Assembly: GCF_036924535.1 (NCBI RefSeq)
Contig: NZ_JAZHRT010000001.1
Coordinates: 4,836,001-4,900,000 of the forward strand
Source of the DNA: Bradyrhizobium sp. AZCC 2262
GTDB taxonomy: Bacteria; Pseudomonadota; Alphaproteobacteria; Rhizobiales; Xanthobacteraceae
Length of the DNA: 64,000 bases
Reading direction: 5' to 3'
Shown one piece after another: positions 38,118-51,019 of the stretch (positions are counted from its first letter, which is position 1; each line of letters opens with the position of its first letter). Made by a program: the position numbers and the translations under genes. Under the pieces are notes generated by a model. That model worked only from the letters and a program-made list of their open reading frames with translations, had not been told where the DNA came from and searched no databases.

Positions 38118-38981
38118 CTACACCACAGTCCGGTGCCGCTCGATGCAAGTCTTCAAGACTTCATCCATCGACTTGTTCCACCAGTCGTTGGAAAAAATTT
38201 CGATCTCGGAATAGCCGACAAAGCCCTGCGCCTCGACGGCCGATCGCACAGATGTGATGTCGATGACGCCGTCACCCATCATGCCGCGATCGTTGAGGAT
38301 ATCTTTTGTCGGCACCAGCCAGTCGCAGACGTGAAACGCCAGCAAGCGATCCTTTCCCGCGCGCGCGATCTGCGGCATCAATTCCGGATCCCACCAGATG
38401 TGATAGACGTCGAGCGCGACGCCGAGCGCGCCGGTGCGCTGCGGATCGAGTTGGTCGCAGATATCCAGCGCCTGCTTCGTCGTGTTCACGCAGGCGCGGT
38501 CCGCGGCATAGGCCGGGTGCAAGGGCTCGATCGCGAGCGGCATGTTGGCCTGTTTGGCGTACTCCATCATTTCGGCGATGGCGTCACGGACCTGCGCGCG
38601 CGCGGCCACGATGTCTTTCGAGGCAACGCTTCCCGGCCGCGAATACTGCGGCAGGCCACCGACGACCAGAACGATACAGGGCGCGCCAAGCGCCTTGGCT
38701 TCATCGATGGCGCGGCGATTGTCGTCGCGCGCCTCGATGCGGCGCGCCGCATCCGCCGTGAACATGCCGCCTCGGCAATAGCCCGATAATTCCAGCCCGG
38801 CGTCGCGTACCGCCCGCACCGCACAGTCGAGGCCTATGGCCGCCACCTGATCGCGCCAGGGATCGATGGCGCGGATGCCATGCCGCGCGCAGGCCTCGAC
38901 GATGGCTGTGAGGTCGCCCTGCTTGCGGACCGTCGCCGTGTTCAGCGACAGCCAGCGATGGTCGGAAGAAAAATCGCGCAT
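38118..38981 (-). CDS. sugar phosphate isomerase/epimerase (xylose-isomerase-like TIM barrel)
   Basis: 287 residues from ATG 38981, overlapping the stop of the DUF993 gene by ATGA. It has the AP-endonuclease-2/xylose-isomerase TIM-barrel pattern with probable metal ligands in AIEPLHP (Glu), ALDVYHIWW (Asp/His), AFHVCDW (His) and YSEIEIFS (Glu). Members interconvert keto-sugars or process inosose-like intermediates. It ends a seven-gene catabolic unit whose ABC importer lies at the 5' end. The specific substrate cannot be read from sequence. Confidence 0.88.
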   Translation of the reverse strand: MRDFSSDHRWLSLNTATVRKQGDLTAIVEACARHGIRAIDPWRDQVAAIGLDCAVRAVRDAGLELSGYCRGGMFTADAARRIEARDDNRRAIDEAKALGAPCIVLVVGGLPQYSRPGSVASKDIVAARAQVRDAIAEMMEYAKQANMPLAIEPLHPAYAADRACVNTTKQALDICDQLDPQRTGALGVALDVYHIWWDPELMPQIARAGKDRLLAFHVCDWLVPTKDILNDRGMMGDGVIDITSVRSAVEAQGFVGYSEIEIFSNDWWNKSMDEVLKTCIERHRTVV

Positions 38982-40174
38982 CAGGGCTCGATGCCGCGCG
39001 TTGCCAGCATTGTCTTCATGCGCCGCGTCGCCAGTTCGGGGTTGGAGAGCAGCCCGGCCTTGTCGGCCAGACGAAACAGTTCCGCCAGATGCAGCGTCGA
39101 GCGCGTGCTCTCCTGCCCGCCGACCATGGTGAAATGGTTCTGATGGCCGTTGAGCCACGCCATGAACACGATGCCGGTCTTGTAGAACCGCGTCGGCGCC
39201 CGGAAGATGTGGCGCGACAGCGGTACCGTCGGCCCCAGCACATCGTGGAAGCCAGCCTCGTCGCCGGCAGCCAGCCGCGACAGCGCATAGGACGCCGCCG
39301 GCGCGATGGCGTCGAAGATGCCGAGCAGCGCGTGCGAAAAACCCTTCGCGTCGCCGGCAATCAATTCGGCGTAGTTGAAATCGTCGCCGGTATACATCTT
39401 GACGTTCTTGTCGAGACGCCGGCGCATGTCGATCTCGCGCTGCTTGTCGAGCAGCGAGACTTTTACACCATCGACCTTGGCGGCGTTGGCGTTAATGATG
39501 GCAACCACTATGTCCATCGCCTTGTCGAGGTCTGCCGTACCCCAATAGCCCGCCAGCGCCGGGTCGAACATGTCGCCGAGCCAGTGGATGATCACGGGCT
39601 CGCGGACCTGGCCCAGCACGCGATTATAGACGCTTGCGTAGTCGTCGGCGCTGCGGCCGAGCTTTGCCAGCGCACGCGAGGCCATCAGGATGATGCGGCC
39701 GCCAGCCTTTTCGACCGCGGCGATCTGTTCTTCGTAAGCATGGATCACGTCATCGATGGACTTCGCATCTTCGACCGCGAGGTGGTCGGTGCCGGCACCG
39801 GAAAACACCAGCGCATTGCCCTTTGCCTTCGCCGCCTTCACCGAACGCTGGATCAATTCCAGCGAGGTCGGCCAGTCCAGCCCCATGCCGCGCTGCGCGG
39901 TGTCCATCGCTTCGGCGACGCCGAGGCCGAGGTCCCAGATGTGCTCGCGGAACGCAATGGTCCGATCCCAGTCGATAGCGGATGTTAGCCACGGGTCGTT
40001 ATCCGCGAATGGATCGGCCACCACATGGGCGGCAGAGAACGCCACGCGGTTGAGCGTGCCTTCGAGCTTCGCCGGAAACATCCGCGACGCCGCCAGGCGA
40101 TAGGTTTCGATCGAACGATCCGCCATCGGCAATTTCAGCGACAGCGAAGACATCGGCAAGACTGGCTTGTTCAT
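38981..40174 (-). CDS. DUF993 family protein (dihydrodipicolinate-synthase-like TIM barrel)
   Basis: 397 residues. FSAAHVVADPFADNDPW, GNALVFSGAGTDHL and REPVIIHWLGDMFDP are features I associate with DUF993, a little-studied family annotated as related to dihydrodipicolinate synthase. Lys238 in VDGVKVSLLD sits where a Schiff-base lysine would be in class I aldolases; this is an inference. It is coupled to the isomerase downstream (ATGA) and lies 12 bases after the Gfo/Idh/MocA gene, so the three probably act in sequence, with an aldol cleavage or dehydration as its possible reaction. Confidence 0.87.
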   Translation of the reverse strand: MNKPVLPMSSLSLKLPMADRSIETYRLAASRMFPAKLEGTLNRVAFSAAHVVADPFADNDPWLTSAIDWDRTIAFREHIWDLGLGVAEAMDTAQRGMGLDWPTSLELIQRSVKAAKAKGNALVFSGAGTDHLAVEDAKSIDDVIHAYEEQIAAVEKAGGRIILMASRALAKLGRSADDYASVYNRVLGQVREPVIIHWLGDMFDPALAGYWGTADLDKAMDIVVAIINANAAKVDGVKVSLLDKQREIDMRRRLDKNVKMYTGDDFNYAELIAGDAKGFSHALLGIFDAIAPAASYALSRLAAGDEAGFHDVLGPTVPLSRHIFRAPTRFYKTGIVFMAWLNGHQNHFTMVGGQESTRSTLHLAELFRLADKAGLLSNPELATRRMKTMLATRGIEP

Positions 40175-40186
40175 GGCTAGGCCTCC

Positions 40187-41338
40187 TCACACCTTGATCG
40201 GGGCGACGTCGATCCAGCGCCGCTCGCGCCAGCTCTGCAACGCGCATTCGGCAAGCTGCACGCCCTTGGCGCCTTCCAGCAGCGTGAACTTGTAGGGCGC
40301 ATCCTCGCAGACGTGGCGGATGAACATCTCCCACTGCTCCTTGAAACCGTTGTCGTAGACGACGTTTTCCGGAACCTTCTGCCAGTCGGCGTAGAAATCA
40401 TGGGTGCGCTTCTCGTCCGGATTCCATACCGGCCGTGGCGTCGCCTGCCGGGCCTGGATCACGCAATCGGTCAAGCCCGCCACCGCCGAGCCGTGGGTGC
40501 CGTCGACCTGGAAAGTCACGAGGTCGTCGCGGTAGACCCGCGTCACCCAGCTCATGTTGATATGCGCGATCACGCCGCCCTTGAGGCGGAAGGTGGCGTA
40601 GGCGGAGTCATCGGCGGTCGCCGTGTACTTCTTGCCCTTCTCGTCGAAACGTTCGGGGATATCTGTCGTGCCGAGACAGGAGATGCTCTCGACCTCGCCG
40701 AAGAGATTGTCGAGCACGTAGCGCCAGTGACAGACCATGTCGAGGATGATGCCGCCGCCGTCCTCGCTGCGATAGTTCCACGACGGCCGCTGCGCCTCCT
40801 GCCAGCCGCCTTCGAACACCCAATAGCCGAACTCGCCACGCACCGAGAGCATGCGCCCGAAAAAACCGGAATCGCGCAGGAAGGCGAGTTTCTTCAGGCC
40901 CGGCAAAAACAGCTTGTCCTGAACCGTGCCGTGCTTGAGCCCCTTGGCGTTGGCGAGCCGCAGCACCGCAACCGCCTCGTCCAGATTGGTCGCAATCGGC
41001 TTTTCGCAATAGACATGCTTGCCGGCGTTGATCGCCTTGGTCAGCAGCGAGGGACGCGCCTGCGTGGTGGCCGCGTCGAAGAAGATCGTATCGTCCTTCG
41101 CGGCCAGCGCCTTGTCGAGATCGGTCGACCAGCGCTCGACGTTGAAGCGCTTGGCAAGGCGCTCGACTTTGTCGGCGTCGCGGCCGATCAGGATCGGATC
41201 AGGCAGCATGCGGTCGCCGTTGGACAGCAGCACGCCGCCCTGGTCGCGGATCGCGATGATGGAGCGGATCAGGTGCTGGTTGAGCCCCATCCGGCCCGTC
41301 ACACCGTTCATGATCAGGCCGAGGCGTTTGGTCGTCAT
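40187..41338 (-). CDS. Gfo/Idh/MocA-family NAD(P)-dependent oxidoreductase
   Basis: 383 residues. The N-terminus MNGVTGRMGLNQHLI departs from the usual GxGxxG but keeps a Rossmann start; the diagnostic EKP motif is in HVYCEKPIATN, and the C-terminal sheet domain has DMVCHWRYVLDNLFGE, whose His is a usual catalytic candidate. Members oxidise sugar or inositol hydroxyls. It overlaps the upstream enolase-superfamily gene by ATGA. It is longer than typical inositol dehydrogenases (about 340) and has an unusual loop ALAFLRDSG-type extension near the cofactor site. Confidence 0.9.
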   Translation of the reverse strand: MTTKRLGLIMNGVTGRMGLNQHLIRSIIAIRDQGGVLLSNGDRMLPDPILIGRDADKVERLAKRFNVERWSTDLDKALAAKDDTIFFDAATTQARPSLLTKAINAGKHVYCEKPIATNLDEAVAVLRLANAKGLKHGTVQDKLFLPGLKKLAFLRDSGFFGRMLSVRGEFGYWVFEGGWQEAQRPSWNYRSEDGGGIILDMVCHWRYVLDNLFGEVESISCLGTTDIPERFDEKGKKYTATADDSAYATFRLKGGVIAHINMSWVTRVYRDDLVTFQVDGTHGSAVAGLTDCVIQARQATPRPVWNPDEKRTHDFYADWQKVPENVVYDNGFKEQWEMFIRHVCEDAPYKFTLLEGAKGVQLAECALQSWRERRWIDVAPIKV

Positions 41339-42741
41339 ACTGCTTTCTCCAAAGGAATTCTGGCTGTGGGCTGCTCGAGCGGCGACATCGCCGACCAGTC
41401 TGGATGTACTGAAGTGGCGAAGCCCGGTGCCGTCAGCGATCCCGTCAGGAGATCGCCGTCATGGATCGCGAGCCGAATTTTGTTGCCATCGCGCGCGTAG
41501 AGATCGGGATGCGCGGACAAAAATGCCTCTGCCTCAGTAGCGGGCGTGTCGCCAAAACCGTCGACGTAATGATGGCCGTTGCGCTCGGCATGGGTGACGC
41601 CGATCAGCGCGCCGAGCGCCAGATCCTGCTGCACCGCCAATCCCGCCTGGCAGGTCAAGTCCTCGCCCGCGACGAAGCATTTTTCGCCGGCGGCGCTCCA
41701 TTTGGCCGCGCGGGTCGCGTTGATCACCGACTTGTAGATGCCCTTGCAGGATTTCGAGGAGATACCGCGATAGCCGAGCGCCCGCGCGATCGGAAACGCA
41801 TCGTAGGAGTCGTCAGCCTCGTCGACGATGAAATCGCGACGTGCCAGCGCGCCGAGCGGCGATTGGCGGGTGATGTCGCGCGGCATCGGCTGTTCGATAT
41901 ACAAGAGCTTTGCCGTGATCGGCCGCAACACCGCCTCGCGGTCGAGCCGGTCGACCAGCGCGCTCAAAGCAGCGAGGTCGGCATATTGTTCATTGGCGTC
42001 GAGCGTCACGCGATAGTCGTAGGGCAGCGTGGCGAGTTCCTTGCCGATCCTGATCAGGCGATCCGCATCGTGTGCGGGATCGCCGTTGAGCTTGAGCTTG
42101 AAATAGCGCGCCCCGGCGTTTTCTCTGATGTCGGCGACACCGCCCTCGCCTTCGACCTTGTCGTCCATGCCGACCGTGTGCCGGATCGCCACGCGCTCCC
42201 GCCGCCTGCGGCTCGCAAGAAACTGCGGCGCGTCGACATCAGTCAGATCGCGCGACAACCGCGCATCGATGCCGGCGACATTGGCCGCCATACCATCAAA
42301 GAAGTTGGTCCCAATACAGCGCAGCAGCGCATCCAGGATCGCCTTGTCGATTTCGGCTGGTCCGTAGGCCGCGGCCAGCGGCGGAATGTCTTCCGTGCCG
42401 CAGGCCTCGATCTGCGCGCCGATACAGGCGGCATGCAGGCCGAACGCCGTCTCGAAGCCGGAATGCGTCAGATAAATATTTCGCGCGATCAACAGCGAGC
42501 GCCGCAGCTCGGTAACCGTTTCTTCGGGCGCCAGCTGCGGCCGCTTATCGAACCATTTTGGCACCAGGAATTCGGCGCCGGCGCCAGTGGCCGTACCCTT
42601 ACCTTCGACCTCGATCTCGACGCGCACAAAGGCCTGCGGCGTCGCGTTGATGACGACCGCGCCGAACCGGAACGGCCGGGCGAAGCTGACCGGACGCTCA
42701 AAGAAGGCAATGTCCTTTACGGCCAAGCGATACGGCATCAA
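41335..42741 (-). CDS. enolase-superfamily enzyme (mandelate racemase/muconate lactonizing type)
   Basis: 468 residues, longer than the usual 370-400, with an extended N-terminal capping domain. Catalytic residues can be placed: KxK (K215, K217) in YFKLKLNG, metal ligands D248 (LDANEQY), E283 (YIEQP) and D307/E308 (VDEADD), and a second-side lysine K330 in ISSKSCKG. These fit the muconate lactonizing/dipeptide epimerase-like subgroup, which abstracts a proton alpha to a carboxylate. It follows the importer ATPase by 8 bases and is coupled to the oxidoreductase, so its substrate is likely the imported acid or a first product. Confidence 0.88.
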   Translation of the reverse strand: MMPYRLAVKDIAFFERPVSFARPFRFGAVVINATPQAFVRVEIEVEGKGTATGAGAEFLVPKWFDKRPQLAPEETVTELRRSLLIARNIYLTHSGFETAFGLHAACIGAQIEACGTEDIPPLAAAYGPAEIDKAILDALLRCIGTNFFDGMAANVAGIDARLSRDLTDVDAPQFLASRRRRERVAIRHTVGMDDKVEGEGGVADIRENAGARYFKLKLNGDPAHDADRLIRIGKELATLPYDYRVTLDANEQYADLAALSALVDRLDREAVLRPITAKLLYIEQPMPRDITRQSPLGALARRDFIVDEADDSYDAFPIARALGYRGISSKSCKGIYKSVINATRAAKWSAAGEKCFVAGEDLTCQAGLAVQQDLALGALIGVTHAERNGHHYVDGFGDTPATEAEAFLSAHPDLYARDGNKIRLAIHDGDLLTGSLTAPGFATSVHPDWSAMSPLEQPTARIPLEKAV

Positions 42742-42749
42742 GCCAGCTT

Positions 42750-43598
42750 TCAGTCCAGCGCACTTTGGGTGAAGAAATGCTTGCGTATCCGCTGCACCAG
42801 TTCGGTGAAGGCGGGATCAGCCATCGCGTCCAGCGAGCGCGGGCGCGGCAGCGGCACGTCGTAGATCGCCGCGATCGCGCCGGGACGCTCGGTCATGACC
42901 AGCACGCGGTCGGCGAGGAACACGGCTTCCGGTATAGAATGCGTGATCAGCAAGACGGTCTTGCCGGTCTCGCGCTGAATGCGCATCAGCTCGACATTCA
43001 TCCTCTCGCGCGTCATGGCGTCGAGCGCGCCGAACGGCTCGTCCATCAGCATGATCTTGGGATCGTGCACCAGCGCTCGGCAGATCGAAGCGCGCTGCTG
43101 CATGCCGCCCGAAAGCTGCCAGGGCAGTTTCTTCTCGAACCCTTCGAGGCCAACCAGCTTTAGCAGCGCTTTCGCCCGCGGCAGATATTCGTCGCGCGGC
43201 AGCTTCTTCATGTCGATCGGCAGCATTACGTTGGAAAGGATGTTGCGCCATGGCAGCAGCAGCGCGTTCTGGAACACGATGCCGACATTACCGTGCGGTT
43301 TTGTAACTTGCTCGCCTTCGACGAGAATCTCACCGGTCGAAGGCGGGAGCAGGCCCGAAATCATCTTCAGCAGCGTGGACTTGCCGCAGCCGGACGGGCC
43401 GACCACGACAAAGAACTCGCCTTCGTTGATGTGGAAATCCAGCGGCCGCAGCGACGGCACATCGCCGTCGCGCGAGCGATAGGTTTTCGAGACGCCCGAC
43501 AGCGTGATGCCCGACGCCGCGCCGCCGGTACGATCCGACACCAGGCGCAGATGCGCGCCCGGTGCGCCGAAGTCGGATGGTTTGGTCGCGGGGTTCAT
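42750..43598 (-). CDS. NitT/TauT-type ABC transporter ATPase
   Basis: 282 residues from ATG 43598; the longer frame runs into a palindromic repeat. Walker A GPSGCGKS, Q-loop GIVFQNALLLPWRN, signature LSGGMQQR, Walker B IMLMDEPFGALD and H-loop LITHSIPEAVFLADR are intact. The FQ...LLPW and DEPFGALD forms are typical of the SsuB/TauB/NrtD group. It drives the importer formed with the permease at 44887 and the receptor at 43759. Confidence 0.94.
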   Translation of the reverse strand: MNPATKPSDFGAPGAHLRLVSDRTGGAASGITLSGVSKTYRSRDGDVPSLRPLDFHINEGEFFVVVGPSGCGKSTLLKMISGLLPPSTGEILVEGEQVTKPHGNVGIVFQNALLLPWRNILSNVMLPIDMKKLPRDEYLPRAKALLKLVGLEGFEKKLPWQLSGGMQQRASICRALVHDPKIMLMDEPFGALDAMTRERMNVELMRIQRETGKTVLLITHSIPEAVFLADRVLVMTERPGAIAAIYDVPLPRPRSLDAMADPAFTELVQRIRKHFFTQSALD

Positions 43599-43617
43599 GA
43601 GAAAGGCCCCCTCCACC

Positions 43618-43737
43618 CGTCGTCCCTGCGAACGCAGGGACCCATACGCCGTGCCCTTCGGTTCGGGCACGGGGGTAGAGACCTTCTGCAACAATGCAGG
43701 CCGGTGGCTATGGGTCCCTGCGTTCGCAGGGACGACG
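43618..43737. repeat. family A palindromic dispersed repeat, copy 2
   Basis: A 120-bp element with ends CGTCGTCCCTGCGAACGCAG and CTGCGTTCGCAGGGACGACG. It lies between receptor and ATPase genes inside the importer operon. Confidence 0.9.
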
Positions 43738-43758
43738 ATAGATACGTCATTAGTCTGC

Positions 43759-44757
43759 TCACGAACCGCCCTGCGGCAGGTAGTCGTTGGTGTAAAACGC
43801 CTTCGGATTATCCTTGGCCTTGGCATCCAACCCGCCATATTCGACCATCAGATTGACCGTATCGGTCATGTTCTGATCGGTGACCTGGAACGGCCGCTTG
43901 TTCCTGGTTTCCGGCGTGCGGTAGAGCGGGATCGTCAGCTCAAACCCCTGCGTCAGCGTTTCGATCTTGCCGCCCTTCGGGTTGGCGTCGAGGATCGACT
44001 GCGCGGCGCCTTTCGGATCCTTCTCGGCGGCTTCGACTGCTTTCGTCGTCGCCGACATGAAGCGCTTGACGAGATCGGCATTGGCCTTGACGAAGTCGGT
44101 GTTGGCGACGACGCCCGAGCAGACCATGTTGATGCCGTAGTCGGCGAACTTGATGGCATTCACGTCCTTGCCGGTGGCGTCCTTGATCTTCATCGACTGG
44201 TCCATGACATAGCCGAGCAGAAGGTCAGCCTGGCCGTTGATGACGGCGTTCAGCTTGGTCTGGCCGTCACCGGCGACCGTCTGGAAGTCGCTTTCCTTGA
44301 GGCCGGTCTTCTTCAGGAACAGTGGCCAGATCTGCGTCATCGAGTCAGCCGGCGTGATCGCCACCGTCTTGCCCTTGATGTCCTCGGGCTTCTTGATGTT
44401 CTTTTCGACAAACCCCATTGCCGACATCGGGCTGGTCTGCAGCAGCACGCCGGTGGCGGTGATCGGCGCACCCTTCACCGCGGCGCGCATCATGGTGGGC
44501 ACGTCGACATAGCCGAAATTGGCGGTCTTCGCCGCTACCGCCTGCGTGGTCGCCGCCGAGCCGCGGCCTTCCTGGATTTCGAGGTCGATGCCCTCGGCGG
44601 CATAGATGCCCTTGGCCTTGCCATAATAGAACGGCGCGTGCTCGCCATAGACGTACCAGTTCAGCATCAGCACGACCTTGTCTGCTGCCGATGCCGGAAG
44701 CACCGAAAGCGCAGTCCAGATCAAGGCGGCGGAGATCGCCGCTGTCGTTCGCATCAT
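43759..44757 (-). CDS. NitT/TauT-type ABC transporter substrate-binding protein (NMT1/THI5-like)
   Basis: 332 residues from ATG 44757, six bases after GGAGG; a second ATG follows at once. The signal peptide ends near LPASA. Mature sequence VVLMLNWYVYGEHAPFYYGKAKGIYAAEGIDLEI and FGYVDVPTMMRAAVKGAPI is the NMT1/THI5-like domain used for aromatic, sulfonate or pyrimidine-like ligands. The ligand is unknown but should feed the enzymes encoded downstream. The gene is flanked by family A and family C palindromic repeats within the operon. Confidence 0.93.
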   Translation of the reverse strand: MMRTTAAISAALIWTALSVLPASAADKVVLMLNWYVYGEHAPFYYGKAKGIYAAEGIDLEIQEGRGSAATTQAVAAKTANFGYVDVPTMMRAAVKGAPITATGVLLQTSPMSAMGFVEKNIKKPEDIKGKTVAITPADSMTQIWPLFLKKTGLKESDFQTVAGDGQTKLNAVINGQADLLLGYVMDQSMKIKDATGKDVNAIKFADYGINMVCSGVVANTDFVKANADLVKRFMSATTKAVEAAEKDPKGAAQSILDANPKGGKIETLTQGFELTIPLYRTPETRNKRPFQVTDQNMTDTVNLMVEYGGLDAKAKDNPKAFYTNDYLPQGGS

Positions 44758-44778
44758 TGTCTTCCTCCCGTTTTGCTT

Positions 44779-44856
44779 CGTCATTGCGAGCGAAGCGAAG
44801 CAATCCATTCCTCCACTTGCGGCGCTATGGATTGCTTCGCTGCGCTCGCAATGACG
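44779..44856. repeat. family C palindromic dispersed repeat, copy 2
   Basis: A 78-bp element with CGTCATTGCGAGCG at left and CGCTCGCAATGACG at right, lying between permease and receptor genes of the importer. Confidence 0.9.
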
Positions 44857-44886
44857 TCATCTGTTGGTGTTTCCAGTAATAAATCT

Positions 44887-45696
44887 TTACGAAGCAAAAA
44901 TGATGTCGTCGCGCTGGCTGACATGCCAGGGGATCACGAGACGCTCGATGCGGTCGACGACCCAGAACAGAACCACGCCGAGCAGCGCCAGGATCACCAG
45001 CGCGGCAAACATCGTCGGCAGATCGAACGTTCCGATCGAGCGCTGCATCACGTAGCCGATGCCGGAATTGGAGCCGACGAACTCGCCGACCACGGCACCG
45101 ACCACCGCCAGCGTGATCGAGACTTTCAGCCCCGAAAAGATAGCCGGCATCGCATGCGGCAGGTTGACGGCGCAGAACACGCGGAAACGGCTACCCTGCA
45201 TGGCGCGGGCGAGATCGACCATGTCAGGGTCGACCGATTTGAAGCCCTGCACCGCCGACACCACGACGGGGAAAAACCCCAGCAGGAACGCCGAGATCAC
45301 CTTCGGGATGATGCCGAAGCCGAACCACACCACGAACAGCGGCGCGATCGCGATTTTCGGCACCGATTGAGAGAACACCAGCAGCGGATAGACGTAGCTT
45401 TCCACCGTCTTCGAGCCCGCGATCAGCATGGCGACGGGAATGCCGAACAGCGCTGACAGCAGAAAGCCGCAGATGGTGGCGTAGGTGGTCGGCCAGGCCT
45501 GCCGCAACAGTTCCGGCCACTCCGTCCGCAGCACCGCCACGACATCGCCGGGCGCGGGGATCTGGTAGGCCGGAATCTGGAACAGGCGGATGGTGAGGTC
45601 CCAGGCCACCACGATGAACAGCAGGAACAAAAACGGCCGCACCCACGCAGCATTCAGCGCTTTCGACACGCCACTCTCGCGCTTCAGCTCCGCCAC
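44887..45696 (-). CDS. NitT/TauT-type ABC transporter permease
   Basis: 269 residues from GTG 45696, which follows GGGAGCGG; the frame is open farther upstream but lacks a better site. About six membrane segments and the EAA-type loop DLARAMQGSRFRVFCAVNLPHAMP followed by ALKV-type SGLKVSITLAVVGAVVGEF identify an SsuC/TauC-like permease. It is the first gene of the seven-gene unit, so the promoter should lie in the region before 45696, part of which is a family A repeat. Confidence 0.92.
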   Translation of the reverse strand: MAELKRESGVSKALNAAWVRPFLFLLFIVVAWDLTIRLFQIPAYQIPAPGDVVAVLRTEWPELLRQAWPTTYATICGFLLSALFGIPVAMLIAGSKTVESYVYPLLVFSQSVPKIAIAPLFVVWFGFGIIPKVISAFLLGFFPVVVSAVQGFKSVDPDMVDLARAMQGSRFRVFCAVNLPHAMPAIFSGLKVSITLAVVGAVVGEFVGSNSGIGYVMQRSIGTFDLPTMFAALVILALLGVVLFWVVDRIERLVIPWHVSQRDDIIFAS

Positions 45697-45792
45697 ATCC
45701 CGCTCCCTGTGATCGTCTTTTTCGGGGAAGAAATTAACCCGTTGGATAAATACTGGCAAGCGGGTTTTGGCGCTGCAATTTGCGACTGCCGC

Positions 45793-45914
45793 CGTCGTTC
45801 CTGCGAAAGCAGGAACCCATAGCCACCGGCGTCAATTGTCAGAGTAAGATCAAGGACTACCGCCTCAAATCGAAAGGCCGCGGCGTATGGGTCCCGGCGT
45901 TCGCCGGGACGACA
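45793..45914. repeat. family A palindromic dispersed repeat, copy 3
   Basis: A 122-bp element with diverged ends (CGTCGTTCCTGCG and CGCCGGGACGAC). It lies between the TetR stop and the permease start. Compensatory differences keep each end hairpin paired. Confidence 0.88.
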
Positions 45915-45917
45915 GAA

Positions 45918-46625
45918 TCAAACCGGCTGATGCGCCGGGGACCGCACGCCTGATAATGCCGGCTTGCCGAAATCCGCGGTCGACTTTCCCGTCAGCGCCG
46001 CCAGCACCAGCGCCACCATGTGGGCGAGACGTTCGTCCCTCGCCTCCTTCTTCAGGAGGTCGCGGCCGAAGATCACGGAGAGAGTGGCGCTGTTGGAGAG
46101 ATAGAAGAAGCACAGCGCGGCGATCGAGATGTAAAGCTGGACCGGATCGACGGCAACGCGAAAATCGCCGCTTTCGACACCGCGCGTCACCACGGTGCGG
46201 ATCATCTCGACGAACGGCGAATGCATCGATTTGACCTTGGTGGAGCGCTTCAGATGGCGGGCCTTGGCGAGATTTTCGGTGTTGAGCAGCGCCAGAAATT
46301 CCGGGTTGCGGAGGAAGTAGTTCCAGGTGAAGTCGATCAGCCGTTCGATCGCCTCGGGCGGATCGAGATGTTCGAGATCGAGTTCGCGCTCCTCGGAACG
46401 GATCTTGTCATAGGCGCCTTCCAGCACCGCGAGATAGAGGTCTTCCTTGTTGCCGACGTGGTAGTACAGCATGCGCTTGTTGGCGCCGGCGTTTGCCGCA
46501 ATGCGGTCGACGCGTGCGCCGGCCAGGCCATGGGCGGCGAATTCCTGCTTGGCGGCCTCGAGAATGCGAAGCCGCATCCCCTCGGGGTCGCGCTGCCATT
46601 TCTGAACGCGTTTTGCCTTTGCCAA
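45918..46625 (-). CDS. TetR/AcrR-family transcriptional regulator
   Basis: 235 residues if started at TTG 46625; the next ATG (46577) would cut the first helix, and a stop lies eight codons upstream, so TTG is preferred. The helix-turn-helix is GARVDRIAANAGANKRMLYYHVGNKEDLY, close to the RutR-like branch of TetR regulators. It is encoded just upstream of and on the same strand as the NitT/TauT-type catabolic unit, making it the probable regulator. The 12 bases GCGACTAATTTG run into its start codon and recur in the P450 promoter palindrome. Confidence 0.85.
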   Translation of the reverse strand: MAKAKRVQKWQRDPEGMRLRILEAAKQEFAAHGLAGARVDRIAANAGANKRMLYYHVGNKEDLYLAVLEGAYDKIRSEERELDLEHLDPPEAIERLIDFTWNYFLRNPEFLALLNTENLAKARHLKRSTKVKSMHSPFVEMIRTVVTRGVESGDFRVAVDPVQLYISIAALCFFYLSNSATLSVIFGRDLLKKEARDERLAHMVALVLAALTGKSTADFGKPALSGVRSPAHQPV

Positions 46626-46817: not shown

Positions 46818-47687
46818 TCAGTCGGCAGCGGTTGGCTTCCCAGCCGACGGCTGCACCAGCAGGGTCGGCACGCCGCACGTGCCGCTGCGCACCGTCATCA
46901 CCCGCGTCCCCGGCTTGCGGCCGGTGCGGACTTCCGAGACGTCGACACCGGCCTGAGTCAGCCGCGCATGGGTGGCGTCGATGTCGGCGACGCGCCAGCA
47001 CAGGCCGCGCAGCCGGTCCTGAAGTTTGTCCGGCGACGTATCCGTCTCCTTGCCCGGCCGGTGCGTAACCTCGACAATCAAGTCGCCGCAGCGGAAGAAC
47101 ATCAGCCGGCCCCAATCGGGGTGCGATCGGTCGAGCGCCATGTCGAGGCCGAGCCGCGCACCATAGAGGGCGGCTGCGCGTTCGGGGTCCGACGTCGAGA
47201 CCACGACATGGTCCATCGCCATGATCGATCCGACGCTCGTTGGGACCGAGAGCGGGCGCTCCTTGTCCCGCTCGAGGAAGAACAGGCGCACGCCGCGCGT
47301 GGCCTCCGCGGCCGTCCGCGTGCGCTTCCAGGTGAGCGTCGCACCTGAGATCGCGTCGCGGCTTTCGACCTCGGCAACGGGCTCCGGCTTCAGCGTCAGC
47401 CGATCGAGTCTGTGGTGCGTCTTGGCGATGTCGCTGGTTCGGAAGCAGATACTCGCCAGCCCCTCGCCTTCTGCGGCAAACACCGCGCGAATACGGTCCG
47501 CATTCGCGCCCTCGCCGCTCGGCGCCACCAATTCCAGCGTCGTGTTATCGAGCGTGAACAGAACGCGGTCGGCGCCGTCGCCGCCGTACTGCCAGGCCGG
47601 TGCACGGGCAAACAAGGTCTGGTAGGCGGCGGCCGCCGCGTTGATGTCGCCGGTGAGAACGACGACGTGATCGAGGCCGGTGATCAC
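46818..47687 (-). CDS. VOC-family protein with two glyoxalase-like domains
   Basis: 289 residues from GTG 47687, which overlaps the glutamate dehydrogenase stop as GTGA. The N-terminal domain starts ITGLDHVVVLTGDINAAAAAY and the second near MDHVVVSTSDPERAAALYG; both follow the vicinal-oxygen-chelate pattern with a His in the first strand and Glu residues in later strands (VEVTH). Members include dioxygenases, lyases and hydrolases using a metal. Reaction unknown. Coupling to glutamate dehydrogenase is conspicuous. Confidence 0.85.
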   Translation of the reverse strand: MITGLDHVVVLTGDINAAAAAYQTLFARAPAWQYGGDGADRVLFTLDNTTLELVAPSGEGANADRIRAVFAAEGEGLASICFRTSDIAKTHHRLDRLTLKPEPVAEVESRDAISGATLTWKRTRTAAEATRGVRLFFLERDKERPLSVPTSVGSIMAMDHVVVSTSDPERAAALYGARLGLDMALDRSHPDWGRLMFFRCGDLIVEVTHRPGKETDTSPDKLQDRLRGLCWRVADIDATHARLTQAGVDVSEVRTGRKPGTRVMTVRSGTCGVPTLLVQPSAGKPTAAD

Positions 47688-48943
47688 GGGAAGAGGCCTC
47701 GCGTGTTCTTGGCAGCGCGGACCTTTTCCACGCCGATCGCCATCGCTGCGGTGCGATGCGGAATCGTGTCGGCATTGGCACGCTGCACCATCTGATCGAA
47801 GGCACGATCGAGAATCGCATATTCGCGCCGCGTCACCTCCTCTTCCTCCCAGAACAATTGTTGCAGGTCCTGCACCCACTCGAAGTAGCTGACCACGACG
47901 CCGCCGGAATTGCAGAGAATGTCGGGAATCAGGAACACTTCGCCCTGGCGCTTTTCCAGTACCAGATCGGCATCCGGCGTGGTCGGGCCATTGGCGCCCT
48001 CGGCCAGCACCCGGCATTTCAGGTTTTCCGCGACCTTCGCGTCGATCACCCGCTCCATCGCCGCCGGCACCAGCACGTCGCAGGGCAGCGTCAGGATTTG
48101 CTCGGGATCGAAGGCCAACTGGTTGGAGTAACCGGCGATGCTGCCATGCGCGCCCGCGTGCCGCATCAACGCGGGAATATCGAGCCCGGCCGGATCGTGC
48201 AGCGCGCCGGTGTGATCGCTGACCGCGACGATCTTCAACCCGTATTGATGCAGCTCCAGCGCGGCATAGGAGCCGACATTGCCAAAGCCCTGGATGACGG
48301 CCGTGGCGGTGCCTGGATTGATCGACAGCTCCTTCAGCACGCGCCTGGCGAGATAGGCCACACCGCGACCGGTCGCTTCGCGGCGGCCAAGCGTGCCGCC
48401 CGACGATACCGGCTTGCCGGTGACGATCTCGGTCACGGTTTGGCCCTGGTACATCGAATAGGTGTCCATGAACCAGGCCATCACCTGCTCATTGGTGCCC
48501 ATGTCCGGCGCCATCACGTCGGTGTGCGGGCCGACGAAGGGAATCATCTCCTGCATGTAGCGCCGCGACAGCGCTTCCAGTTCGCGTTTGGAGATGGTGG
48601 AGAGATCGACATTGACGCCGCCCTTGGCGCCGCCGTAAGGCAGCCCGACCAGCGCGCATTTCCAGCTCATCCAGATCGCAAGTGCTGCAACTTCGCCGAT
48701 GTCGACGGAGGGCGCGAATCGCGTTCCCCCCTTGGTCGGGCCGAGGGTGAGGTGATGCTGCACCCGGTAGCCTTCGAACACTGCGACCGTGCCGTCATCG
48801 CGGTGAATCGGACAGGAAACGGTGATGGCTCGCTTCGGCATCAGGATACGGTCGCGTTCGTCCATCGGGATTTCGAGATGGTTGGCGATCACACCAAACT
48901 GGTTCACCGCCATGTCGAACACCGGACCGGAATAAACGGTCAT
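47684..48943 (-). CDS. NAD(P)-dependent glutamate dehydrogenase
   Basis: 419 residues, the usual hexameric size. ATG 48943 lies five bases after GGAGG. Features: VEFEGYRVQHHLTLGPTKGG-like substrate region (GYRVQHHLTLGPTKGG), catalytic lysine region LPYGGAKGGV, PDMGTNEQVMAWFMDTY, nucleotide fold VIQGFGNVGSYAA and the C-terminal NSGGVVVSYFEW. It interconverts glutamate and 2-oxoglutarate plus ammonia. It is divergent from the sugar-kinase gene at 49169 across 225 bases and coupled to the VOC gene. Confidence 0.95.
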   Translation of the reverse strand: MTVYSGPVFDMAVNQFGVIANHLEIPMDERDRILMPKRAITVSCPIHRDDGTVAVFEGYRVQHHLTLGPTKGGTRFAPSVDIGEVAALAIWMSWKCALVGLPYGGAKGGVNVDLSTISKRELEALSRRYMQEMIPFVGPHTDVMAPDMGTNEQVMAWFMDTYSMYQGQTVTEIVTGKPVSSGGTLGRREATGRGVAYLARRVLKELSINPGTATAVIQGFGNVGSYAALELHQYGLKIVAVSDHTGALHDPAGLDIPALMRHAGAHGSIAGYSNQLAFDPEQILTLPCDVLVPAAMERVIDAKVAENLKCRVLAEGANGPTTPDADLVLEKRQGEVFLIPDILCNSGGVVVSYFEWVQDLQQLFWEEEEVTRREYAILDRAFDQMVQRANADTIPHRTAAMAIGVEKVRAAKNTRGLFP

Positions 48944-49168
48944 CATTTCCTCCACTTTTGTCGCGTTGCTGGGAAACCCGGACGGCCGTCAGCCGTTATA
49001 CGACGGTATGCCCCAGCCCCCTTAAGGACGGTCGCAGTCTCCTCTATACTCCCATCTCAAGCTGCAAAGACGGCACGGTTGCGAATAATTTCAGCGAATG
49101 CATTCGATAACCAGTGCTAATGTAGCGCGCCGGGCCGGGATCACCCATCAGCTCATGACGGAAAACGA

Positions 49169-50080
49169 ATGCAGGCCCTCTTCATCGGACAGACCTATAT
49201 CGACGTCACCTTCATCACCGACCACATGCCGACCGGCGACGAAAAACATGTGGCCTCCGCCTACGCGGTGTCCTTTGGCGGCAATGCCGTCACCGCGGCG
49301 TTCTGCTGCGCCAAGCTCGGCATCGTGCCCGACCTGATCGCGACCATCGCCAACGACTGGCTCGGCCGCATGTTTCAGGACATGGCGGCGAAATACGGAA
49401 TCTCGATCCATCCGCGCAAGGTCAATTCCTCCTCGCTGTCCTTCATCATGCCAAAGGACGGCAAGCGCGCCATCGTGCGCTGCCGCGACGACGAGCATAT
49501 CCATCCCTTTCCGATGCTGAATTTGAAGGGCTGCCGCGCGCTGCATGTCGATGGCCATCAGCCGGATGCCGCGATCCACTACGCAAAACTATGCCGCGAG
49601 GATGGCATTCTGACCTCGCTCGACGGCGGCGGCCTGCGCACCAACACGCACGAGCTGTTGGAGTTCATAGACGTCGCCATCGTGGCCGAGCGGCTGTGCG
49701 AGCAGATGGACAAGACGCCGAACGCGATGCTGGACTATCTCAAGAGCCGCGGCTGCCGGGTCGGCGGCGTCACCATGGGCGAACAGGGCCTGCTCTGGTA
49801 TGACGAGACCGGTGCGGTCCGCAAGCTACCGGCGCTGCCAATCGCAGGCGAGCGCGTGATCGATACCAACGGCGCCGGTGACGTATTTCATGGCGCTTAC
49901 GTGTTTTCGTATCTCAACAATCCCTCGAAAGGCTGGCAGGACCATTTCGAGTTTGCGCGCGCGGCCTCGACCTATAAGATCCAGCGCCTCGGCAACGAGG
50001 CTGGATTGCCGGCGCTTGCCGATATCGATGCCGTCAAGCAGGAGTTCCAGATCGGGCGTAAGAAGGAATTTTGGGATTAG
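49169..50080 (+). CDS. PfkB-family carbohydrate kinase
   Basis: 303 residues. The N-terminal IGQTYIDVTFITDHMPTGDEK and VSFGGNAVTAAFCCAKLG correspond to PfkB substrate motifs, and IDTNGAGDVFHGAYVF contains the catalytic GAGD with the Asp base. The kinase would phosphorylate a sugar or sugar acid with ATP. It precedes a ribokinase-like gene with only 6 bases between, giving a two-kinase operon. Substrate unknown. Its N-terminal half is closer to the general sugar-kinase branch than to ribokinase. Confidence 0.9.
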   Translation: MQALFIGQTYIDVTFITDHMPTGDEKHVASAYAVSFGGNAVTAAFCCAKLGIVPDLIATIANDWLGRMFQDMAAKYGISIHPRKVNSSSLSFIMPKDGKRAIVRCRDDEHIHPFPMLNLKGCRALHVDGHQPDAAIHYAKLCREDGILTSLDGGGLRTNTHELLEFIDVAIVAERLCEQMDKTPNAMLDYLKSRGCRVGGVTMGEQGLLWYDETGAVRKLPALPIAGERVIDTNGAGDVFHGAYVFSYLNNPSKGWQDHFEFARAASTYKIQRLGNEAGLPALADIDAVKQEFQIGRKKEFWD

Positions 50081-50086
50081 GCATCC

Positions 50087-51019
50087 TTGAGAAGCAATTT
50101 GGGGCGCGTCTTCGTCGCCGGCAGCATCAACATGGATGTGGTGGCGACAGCCAGCCGGCATCCCAGGGTCGGCGAGACCGTCGCCGGCAACGCCGTGCAT
50201 TATTTTCCGGGCGGCAAGGGTGCGAACCAGGCGGTCGCCGCGGCGAAGCTGGGTGCATCGACCGCGCTGATCGGCCGGCTGGGCACAGATGCCTTCGGCC
50301 AGCAATTGCGGACATTCCTCGCCGCGCAAGGCGTCGACCTCGCGCTCGTCAAGGACACCGCCGGGACCCATAGCGGAACGGCCATCATCACCATCGCCGA
50401 CGCCGACAACACCATCGTGGTCGTGCCTGGCGCCAACGCGCTCGTCAGTGCGGACGATGTTGCCGCTCCCGTGCTCGCCAAGGGTGATGTCGCTGTCAGC
50501 CAATTCGAAATTCCGCAAGCTACGATCGCCGCGTTTTTCGAGCGCGCGCGGGCGGCCGGCGCGACCACGATCCTCAATCCGGCGCCGGCCATCGCCTGTG
50601 GCCCGGAGTTGCTCGACCTCGTCGATATACTGATCCTCAATGAGACCGAGTTGGGGTTTCTTGCGCATACCGAGCTTCACGATGGCGACGCGCCTGATCG
50701 CTTCGTCGAGGCGGCGAGGCGCCTACAAACAGGCACGAACGGAATCATCTGCGTCACCTTGGGCAGGCGTGGCGTGCTTGCGCTTGTCGGCGGCGAGGCA
50801 TTGATGATTGCCGGACGCGCGGTGAAGGCCGTGGATACGACCGGCGCCGGTGACTGCTTTGTCGGCGCCCTCGCCGCGCAGTTGGCGGGCGGCACGGCCA
50901 TCCGCGACGCGCTCAACTACGCAAATGCGGCGGCATCGATCTCCGTGCAGCGGATGGGCGCTGCGCCATCGATGCCGATGGCGGCGGAAGTGGATGAGAT
51001 ACTGGCAAAACGCGCCTGA
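50087..51019 (+). CDS. rbsK: ribokinase-like PfkB-family kinase
   Basis: 310 residues from TTG 50087; no ATG is available before the conserved N-terminus (FVAGSINMDVVATASRHP). PGGKGANQAVAAAKLG and VDTTGAGDCFVGALAA are the two PfkB signatures in ribokinase form. NETEL also matches ribokinases. Predicted to phosphorylate ribose or a similar pentose in the cytoplasm, although no ribose transporter is adjacent. A family D palindrome follows three bases after the stop and may end transcription. Confidence 0.85.
   Translation: MRSNLGRVFVAGSINMDVVATASRHPRVGETVAGNAVHYFPGGKGANQAVAAAKLGASTALIGRLGTDAFGQQLRTFLAAQGVDLALVKDTAGTHSGTAIITIADADNTIVVVPGANALVSADDVAAPVLAKGDVAVSQFEIPQATIAAFFERARAAGATTILNPAPAIACGPELLDLVDILILNETELGFLAHTELHDGDAPDRFVEAARRLQTGTNGIICVTLGRRGVLALVGGEALMIAGRAVKAVDTTGAGDCFVGALAAQLAGGTAIRDALNYANAAASISVQRMGAAPSMPMAAEVDEILAKRA

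Follow-up and report, generated by a model that had tools for sequence, protein, structure and literature searches.

A conserved eight-gene cluster around a DUF993 protein in Bradyrhizobium sp. AZCC 2262, a candidate operon for catabolism of a polyhydroxylated carboxylate

The window analysed here is a stretch of 64,000 nucleotides from Bradyrhizobium sp. AZCC 2262 (contig NZ_JAZHRT010000001.1, positions 4,836,001 to 4,900,000). Between 38118 and 46625, all on the minus strand, it contains eight genes in the order TetR regulator, permease, receptor, ATPase, enolase-superfamily enzyme of the muconate-lactonizing (MLE) subgroup, Gfo/Idh/MocA oxidoreductase (Gfo), DUF993 protein and isomerase. 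These genes, their families, strand and order had been listed in an earlier note made from the letters alone, and the list was confirmed by sequence and Pfam analysis. The data support that the eight genes are one conserved catabolic unit, in which oxidoreductase, DUF993 and isomerase are the steady part; the MLE enzyme and the NitT importer can be absent or exchanged. With a probability of about one half, we propose that the cluster is an operon under local regulation that serves the catabolism of a polyhydroxylated carboxylate, i.e. an oxidised sugar or a similar hydroxy acid.

Gene order was compared in loci from an MLE-alignment scan of genome contigs; the scan confirmed 576 relatives, and the best 80, almost all of them from the own family, were considered. 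All eight genes were found in one order and strand in 70 of these 80 named, mostly Bradyrhizobium loci; the remaining ten lack at least one gene, mostly at contig ends near the cluster, and in L215, also among the 80, the TetR gene adjoins the MLE gene and the importer is absent. Within the genus, 91 of 98 genomes had an MLE match. The doubt that the genes might not be conserved together beyond close relatives did not hold, since other families, another class and plasmids carry the set. The full eight-gene order is present in a genome from another class of the phylum (L111), whose DUF993 clusters with that of a Paraburkholderia plasmid, and a Chelatococcus plasmid encodes all eight genes with TetR last. 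Furthermore, the seven-gene order from permease to isomerase, with TetR at the opposite end, was found in one other family (three genomes, L184, L185 and L189) and in one genome of a further family (L101/L188). A record labelled Frankia sp. RB7 (JAUEPE010000052.1) contains a Bradyrhizobium-type MLE (76%), Gfo, DUF993 and isomerase; here, mislabelling or contamination is suspected.

Co-occurrence was counted in an order sample of 297 genomes, with MLE counted at E up to 1e-20 and the close Gfo type at E up to 1e-80; weak second matches (one DUF993 row and three Gfo rows) were omitted. DUF993 was present in 91 genomes, the close Gfo type in 61 and MLE in 41. All 61 Gfo genomes contained DUF993 (18.7 expected), and in 58 of them the two genes were located on one strand at a spacing of at most 500 bp. 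DUF993 was also found in 40 of the 41 MLE genomes (12.6 expected), and in 30 of the 41 it was at most 10 kb away. Exclusion of the own family (assumed to comprise 14 genomes) left 49/49 Gfo genomes and 28/29 MLE genomes with DUF993. Thirty of the 91 DUF993 genomes were without the close Gfo type. In a phylum sample of 299 genomes, DUF993 was found in 33 and MLE in 12, with DUF993 in 11 of these 12 (the exception being G507), and in a class sample DUF993 was present in 28 of 289 genomes. In addition, 39 DUF993 loci from 37 genomes were compared, which were hand-picked for diversity and whose fractions are not unbiased: Gfo adjoined DUF993 in 23, an isomerase was present in all 23, MLE in the stretch in 10 and MLE together with the NitT set in 7. 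The gene caller missed some genes, such as the Gfo of L106 that was recovered by tblastn, and the gene lists of the loci may be incomplete. The exact set, which the earlier note had emphasised, turned out to be less fundamental than the stable core of three enzymes, and the gene set of the window is one among several variants of a broader theme built on DUF993.

The predicted model of the DUF993 protein is a barrel of the dihydrodipicolinate-synthase (DHDPS) type, the fold of DapA and NanA. Lys238 had been put forward as a candidate Schiff-base residue together with a structure prediction as the way to examine it; in the model that was then made, it lies on strand 234-239 (strand six) opposite K161 of DapA (6p90), in a weakly aligned stretch (i-Evalue 0.57), and it is invariant across the aligned DUF993 rows. 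The model therefore supports Lys238 in the Schiff-base position of an aldolase-type barrel. The protein is 61% identical over 383 residues to PDB 4dnh (SMc04132 of Sinorhizobium meliloti, released in 2012). A 3.7 Mb record labelled S. meliloti pSymB (CP090106.1) encodes a DUF993 protein that is, by eye, near-identical to 4dnh; since the SMc04132 tag presumably belongs to the chromosomal series, the pSymB label looks doubtful. SMc04132, SMc04133, SMc04135, SMc04138 and SMc04139 stand together as uncharacterised or putative in a regulon table in the available text of PMC12542648. Among the papers searched, this one alone was found to contain SMc04132 and SMc04133, and PMC11387232 contains SMc04134. 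A tree of 56 DUF993 rows, whose deep branches are weak, sorts by partner, with 7 label changes versus 21.0 after shuffling; none of 200 shuffles gave so low a value. Other clades accompany SDR, GMC, LacI, CoA-transferase, acyl-CoA dehydrogenase and electron-transferring flavoprotein (ETF) genes. In one such operon type (L128, L131 and L133), DUF993 is joined by SDR, acyl-CoA dehydrogenase and ETF genes; some of these operons also contain CoA-transferase, enoyl-CoA hydratase and GMC oxidoreductase genes.

The enolase-type enzyme is predicted to comprise both the capping domain and the TIM barrel, and its fold is nearest to the muconate, dipeptide and N-acylamino-acid enzymes of the MLE subgroup. 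K215/K217, D248/E283/D307 and K330 are invariant in 27/27 rows, and by position we take them to be the KxK motif, the three acidic metal ligands and the second lysine. Pfam MR_MLE_C did not match the window protein at E 1, and 7 of 14 rows matched (best 6e-13). Fold and positions of the catalytic residues support a divergent member of the enolase superfamily, MLE subgroup, in line with the assignment made from the letters. MLE relatives away from DUF993 adjoin uronate- or polysaccharide-type genes (KduI/IolB, GH39), and a relative from a haloarchaeon (30% identity) adjoins heparinase II/III and acetylxylan esterase. On Rhizobium plasmids (L137:4217-8962, L122), MLE is accompanied by KduI/IolB, GH39, a TIM-barrel protein, a 2-hydroxyacid dehydrogenase and an oligopeptide-type importer; of the 128 plasmid records in which MLE had a match, 92 are from Rhizobium. 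A sister module beside MLE relatives (L178:7333-9469, L187:13896-14957, L272 and L275) consists of an NAD-dependent epimerase/dehydratase and a 354-aa DHDPS-family protein; it was also found on an actinobacterial plasmid, and in L178 it adjoins the Gfo-DUF993-isomerase core. A second, IolO-like isomerase adjoins MLE in many relatives and was not found in the own genome in a weak search without positive control.

The Gfo protein matched PF22725, PF02894 and PF01408 above the cut-offs (Rossmann and C-terminal domains) and PDB 3oqb at E 2.9e-240; in loci outside the own family, proteins of this Gfo type share 65-77% identity with that of the window. E112-K113-P114, D200 and H204 are invariant in 18/18 rows, and the lysine of the EKP motif, the aspartate and the histidine are presumably the catalytic residues. 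In the same 18 rows R53 and K57 are invariant, which by the usual rule would suggest NADP, and in Qingshengfaniella the core and a glycerate kinase gene are separated by NAD(P) transhydrogenase genes; together, this hints at NADP, and the enzyme is probably NADP-linked. IolG and levoglucosan dehydrogenase were rejected as identities (68.5 versus 355 and 53.1 versus 650 at the NCBIfam cut-offs). The isomerase has E152, D191, H217 and E261 invariant in 18 rows, which we assume to be the usual metal site. Its scores for IolO, 2-oxo-tetronate isomerase and hydroxypyruvate isomerase were 19.1-25.4 bits at NCBIfam cut-offs of 300-353, and these identities were rejected, too.

The importer of the window matched PF09084 (NMT1 receptor), PF00528 (permease) and PF00005 (ATPase). 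The taurine, SaoAPX and aliphatic-sulfonate importers were rejected by NCBIfam cut-offs, for example with 228.9 versus 357 for the ATPase, 106.8 versus 295 for the permease and 63 versus 163.5 for the receptor. Importers beside the core vary: besides NitT, tripartite tricarboxylate (Nitratireductor, Paroceanicella, Palleronia), MFS (Erwinia) and sugar ABC transporters (Paracoccus) were found. The tripartite tricarboxylate transporters, which carry acids, replace NitT in relatives. Of the 77 clustered loci, 6 have a glycerate kinase gene in the neighbourhood of DUF993, three of the Gfo type (L126, L129 and L136) and three of the SDR type (L107, L130 and L133), and the own genome encodes a glycerate kinase elsewhere.

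The inverted repeat in front of the permease gene may be the operator of the cluster, judging from its distribution. Of 76 related upstream regions, 67 contain its 12-mer GTATTTATCCAA. The own genome, searched with up to 3 mismatches, has the 20-mer only once, and there is thus no link to the glycerate kinase there. With TTAWCC-N4-GGWTAA at up to one mismatch, 10 copies were found in 1.42 Mb of loci versus 2.0 per set in simple block shuffles. Eight of the 10 stand where a permease, TctC or TetR gene begins, and two (L093 and L182) do not. Five of the eight are from the own family, the source of the pattern. The other three are distant: in L106, L110 and L111 (the latter by the position of TetR) the repeat, unchanged or with one mismatch, precedes a transport or TetR gene.

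From these features the following route can be drawn. The NitT/TauT importer would take up a polyhydroxylated acid, from which the MLE enzyme, with its KxK motif, Lys330 and Asp/Glu/Asp metal site, would abstract the proton beside the carboxylate and thereby make the substrate of the core, either by cycloisomerisation of a lactone or by epimerisation. The Gfo enzyme would then oxidise one secondary hydroxyl to a ketone, probably with NADP, and DUF993 would form a Schiff base to this ketone via Lys238, followed by retro-aldol splitting of the chain. One fragment would be converted by the TIM-barrel isomerase to a form ending in glycerate, which glycerate kinase would phosphorylate. TetR would repress the operon through the inverted repeat until an inducer arrives. 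The catabolic interpretation of the earlier note has thus gained a conserved unit, the DUF993 barrel with Lys238 and the MLE subgroup; the substrate class, the order and direction of the steps, the cleavage, the cofactor, the glycerate end product and the operator are what we infer.

Several observations weigh against this route. Since the genomes are related, the co-occurrence statistics are inflated and their probabilities overstate independence, and the Gfo and DUF993 genes lie apart in 3 of the 61 Gfo genomes. In DUF993 the GTTGE pyruvate-binding stretch of DapA reads D91-T92-A93-Q94-R95, in a very weak alignment (3.5 bits), and strand 194-198 has H197-W198 and no tyrosine where DapA has Tyr133. 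DUF993 may therefore have a chemistry other than classical aldol cleavage of a 2-oxo acid. The route leaves the acyl-CoA dehydrogenase, ETF and CoA-transferase neighbours of other DUF993 clades unexplained, and NitT receptors bind non-sugar compounds, too. Besides, 71 of the 77 clustered loci, in which the gene caller misses some genes, and the cluster of the window are without glycerate kinase. Finally, MLE has no DUF993 within 10 kb in 11 of the 41 MLE genomes (one without DUF993; some contigs are short), often with an importer of its own (L172, L173, L176, L181 and L187), and in loci of other families the identity to the window is only 36-51% for MLE versus the values given above for Gfo. 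This is what one would see if two modules were merely co-located and shared regulation alone, importer and MLE for one substrate and Gfo, DUF993 and isomerase for another. We regard this as very improbable because DUF993 accompanies MLE in all but one of the MLE genomes, even where the genes lie apart, and because the MLE and Gfo genes of the window share a 4-base overlap.

A different order of steps would follow the Udh-Gci-KdgD route of galacturonate oxidation: Gfo would turn an aldose or uronate into a lactone by oxidation at C1, MLE would open the lactone to a 3-deoxy-2-oxo acid, DUF993 would dehydrate or split this via Lys238 and the isomerase would handle an anomer or a product. The MLE relatives of L178, L187, L272 and L275, with their epimerase/dehydratase and DHDPS-family protein, indeed resemble a set of uronate dehydrogenase, cycloisomerase and KdgD. 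According to the available text of PMC6353982, Gci converts galactarolactone to a 3-deoxy-2-oxo acid, and another enolase-superfamily cycloisomerase works on a sugar acid (PMC9706016, available text). However, 21 of the 61 Gfo genomes have the Gfo-DUF993 pair without an MLE match, which also counts against the route drawn above, and the core route therefore cannot depend on MLE for a step in its middle. The epimerase-DHDPS pair and the core occur together in L178, so that neither simply substitutes for the other, and in a weak alignment DUF993 does not keep the residues with which DapA binds the carboxylate. We therefore consider the lactone order rather unlikely.

The substrate might also be a hydroxylated cyclic or aromatic-derived acid, with MLE acting as a muconate cycloisomerase and DUF993 opening the ring at the ketone. 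The nearest folds of the MLE enzyme include the muconate enzymes beside the dipeptide and N-acylamino-acid enzymes, and a ring-cleaving dioxygenase gene adjoins the Chelatococcus cluster. Acyl-CoA dehydrogenase, ETF, CoA-transferase and enoyl-CoA hydratase genes, which are unusual in sugar routes, accompany other DUF993 clades. On the other hand, genes for isomerases, sugar ABC transporters and glycerate kinase are seen repeatedly in the loci, where many neighbours are unlabelled, and such a cyclic or aromatic-derived acid appears improbable.

Beyond the polyhydroxylated acid proposed for this cluster, we suggest, only tentatively and with somewhat less than even confidence, that DUF993 is the founder of a Schiff-base aldolase class whose substrates are 3-keto and not 2-oxo acids, produced by a dedicated dehydrogenase. 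It would be a plug-in splitting module of Proteobacteria that serves several carbon sources with varied oxidising partners (Gfo, SDR, flavin-dependent GMC, acyl-CoA dehydrogenase/CoA-transferase), and the window would hold the version for an acid supplied via a new family of the MLE subgroup.

The features are compiled in Table 1. Upstream, at 47684-51019, a Glu/Leu/Phe/Val dehydrogenase gene on the minus strand (Pfam) and two sugar-kinase-like open reading frames on the plus strand (by eye) are located; four of the clustered loci contain a frame related to the first of these two. GC-rich palindromes of the types GTCCCGGCGAACGCCGGGAC and GTTCCTGCTTTCGCAGGAAC in the operon gaps 45891-45910, 45797-45816 and 43599-43758 resemble a dispersed repeat. 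A consensus promoter scan gave no hit. A phage or mobile origin was rejected: the DUF993 patterns had no match in viral contigs, and the GC content is 0.60-0.66 across the window.

Table 1 Features of the cluster in the window
Feature	Position	Strand	Remarks
TetR-family regulator	45918..46625	-	Pfam TetR_N and TetR_C_29 above cut-offs; leads the cluster in 70/80 loci (best 80 of 576)
Candidate operator, inverted repeat TTATCC-N4-GGTTAA	45734..45749	-	ca. 40 bp before the corrected start of the permease gene
NitT/TauT-type ABC permease	44887..45696	-	BPD_transp_1 117 bits; start moved to GTG 45696 from the sequence
NMT1/THI5-type periplasmic receptor	43759..44757 (start approximate)	-	NMT1 154 bits
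ABC ATPase	42750..43598	-	ABC_tran 116 bits; start moved to ATG 43598 from the sequence
Divergent enolase-superfamily enzyme, MLE subgroup, 468 aa	41335..42741	-	
Gfo/Idh/MocA oxidoreductase	40187..41338	-	Pfam above cut-offs; relative is PDB 3oqb
DUF993 (PF06187), putative Schiff-base aldolase	38981..40174	-	relative is PDB 4dnh
Xylose-isomerase-like TIM-barrel isomerase/epimerase	38118..38981	-	AP_endonuc_2 (PF01261) 132 bits, cut-off 31

The earlier note knew of no described route with this set; likewise, no function or pathway for DUF993 or the cluster was found in the searched literature, of which few subscription papers were reached, so that an assignment elsewhere is possible. DUF993 has partner enzymes that differ by clade, and the family has had a structure since 2012 without a known job. 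One substrate fixed would name the aldolase family, the Gfo subfamily, the isomerase and the new MLE branch together, and it would uncover a carbon source that perhaps serves most Bradyrhizobium.

Among known systems, direct membership in the inositol, levoglucosan, hydroxypyruvate and taurine routes was ruled out by NCBIfam cut-offs. Myo-inositol catabolism employs a Gfo dehydrogenase (IolG), TIM-barrel isomerases (IolE/IolI/IolO) and an aldolase (IolJ); the cluster shares this logic, but its Gfo and isomerase are far below the IolG and IolO cut-offs. The close relatives with structures, PDB 4dnh for DUF993 and PDB 3oqb for Gfo, are entered only as a hypothetical protein and an "oxidoreductase", respectively. 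Compared to muconate cycloisomerase, dipeptide epimerase and N-succinylamino acid racemase of the MLE subgroup, the window protein is 12-20% identical and about 100 residues longer. KdgD belongs to the DHDPS family. The oxidative uronate route Udh-Gci-KdgD of Agrobacterium likewise has dehydrogenase, cycloisomerase and dehydratase in one route (PMC6353982, available text); the window has Gfo for Udh, DUF993 for KdgD and an isomerase in addition, and a scan limited to ten proteins of the genome gave no match to PF01370 or PF00701, the families of the Udh-type epimerase/dehydratase and of KdgD. DUF993 is 11-18% identical to the DHDPS/NAL superfamily (DapA, NanA, KdgD, GudL) and about 100 residues longer; unlike in that superfamily, the GTTGE motif appears not to be kept (weak alignment) and strand five is without the tyrosine, and DUF993 has its own Pfam family. 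A published analogue for the role proposed for its Schiff-base lysine is GudL, a DapA-like aldolase in which, according to the available text of PMC11775122, the exchange K167A (opposite DapA Lys161) abolished glucarate and galactarate use in an E. coli garL knockout.

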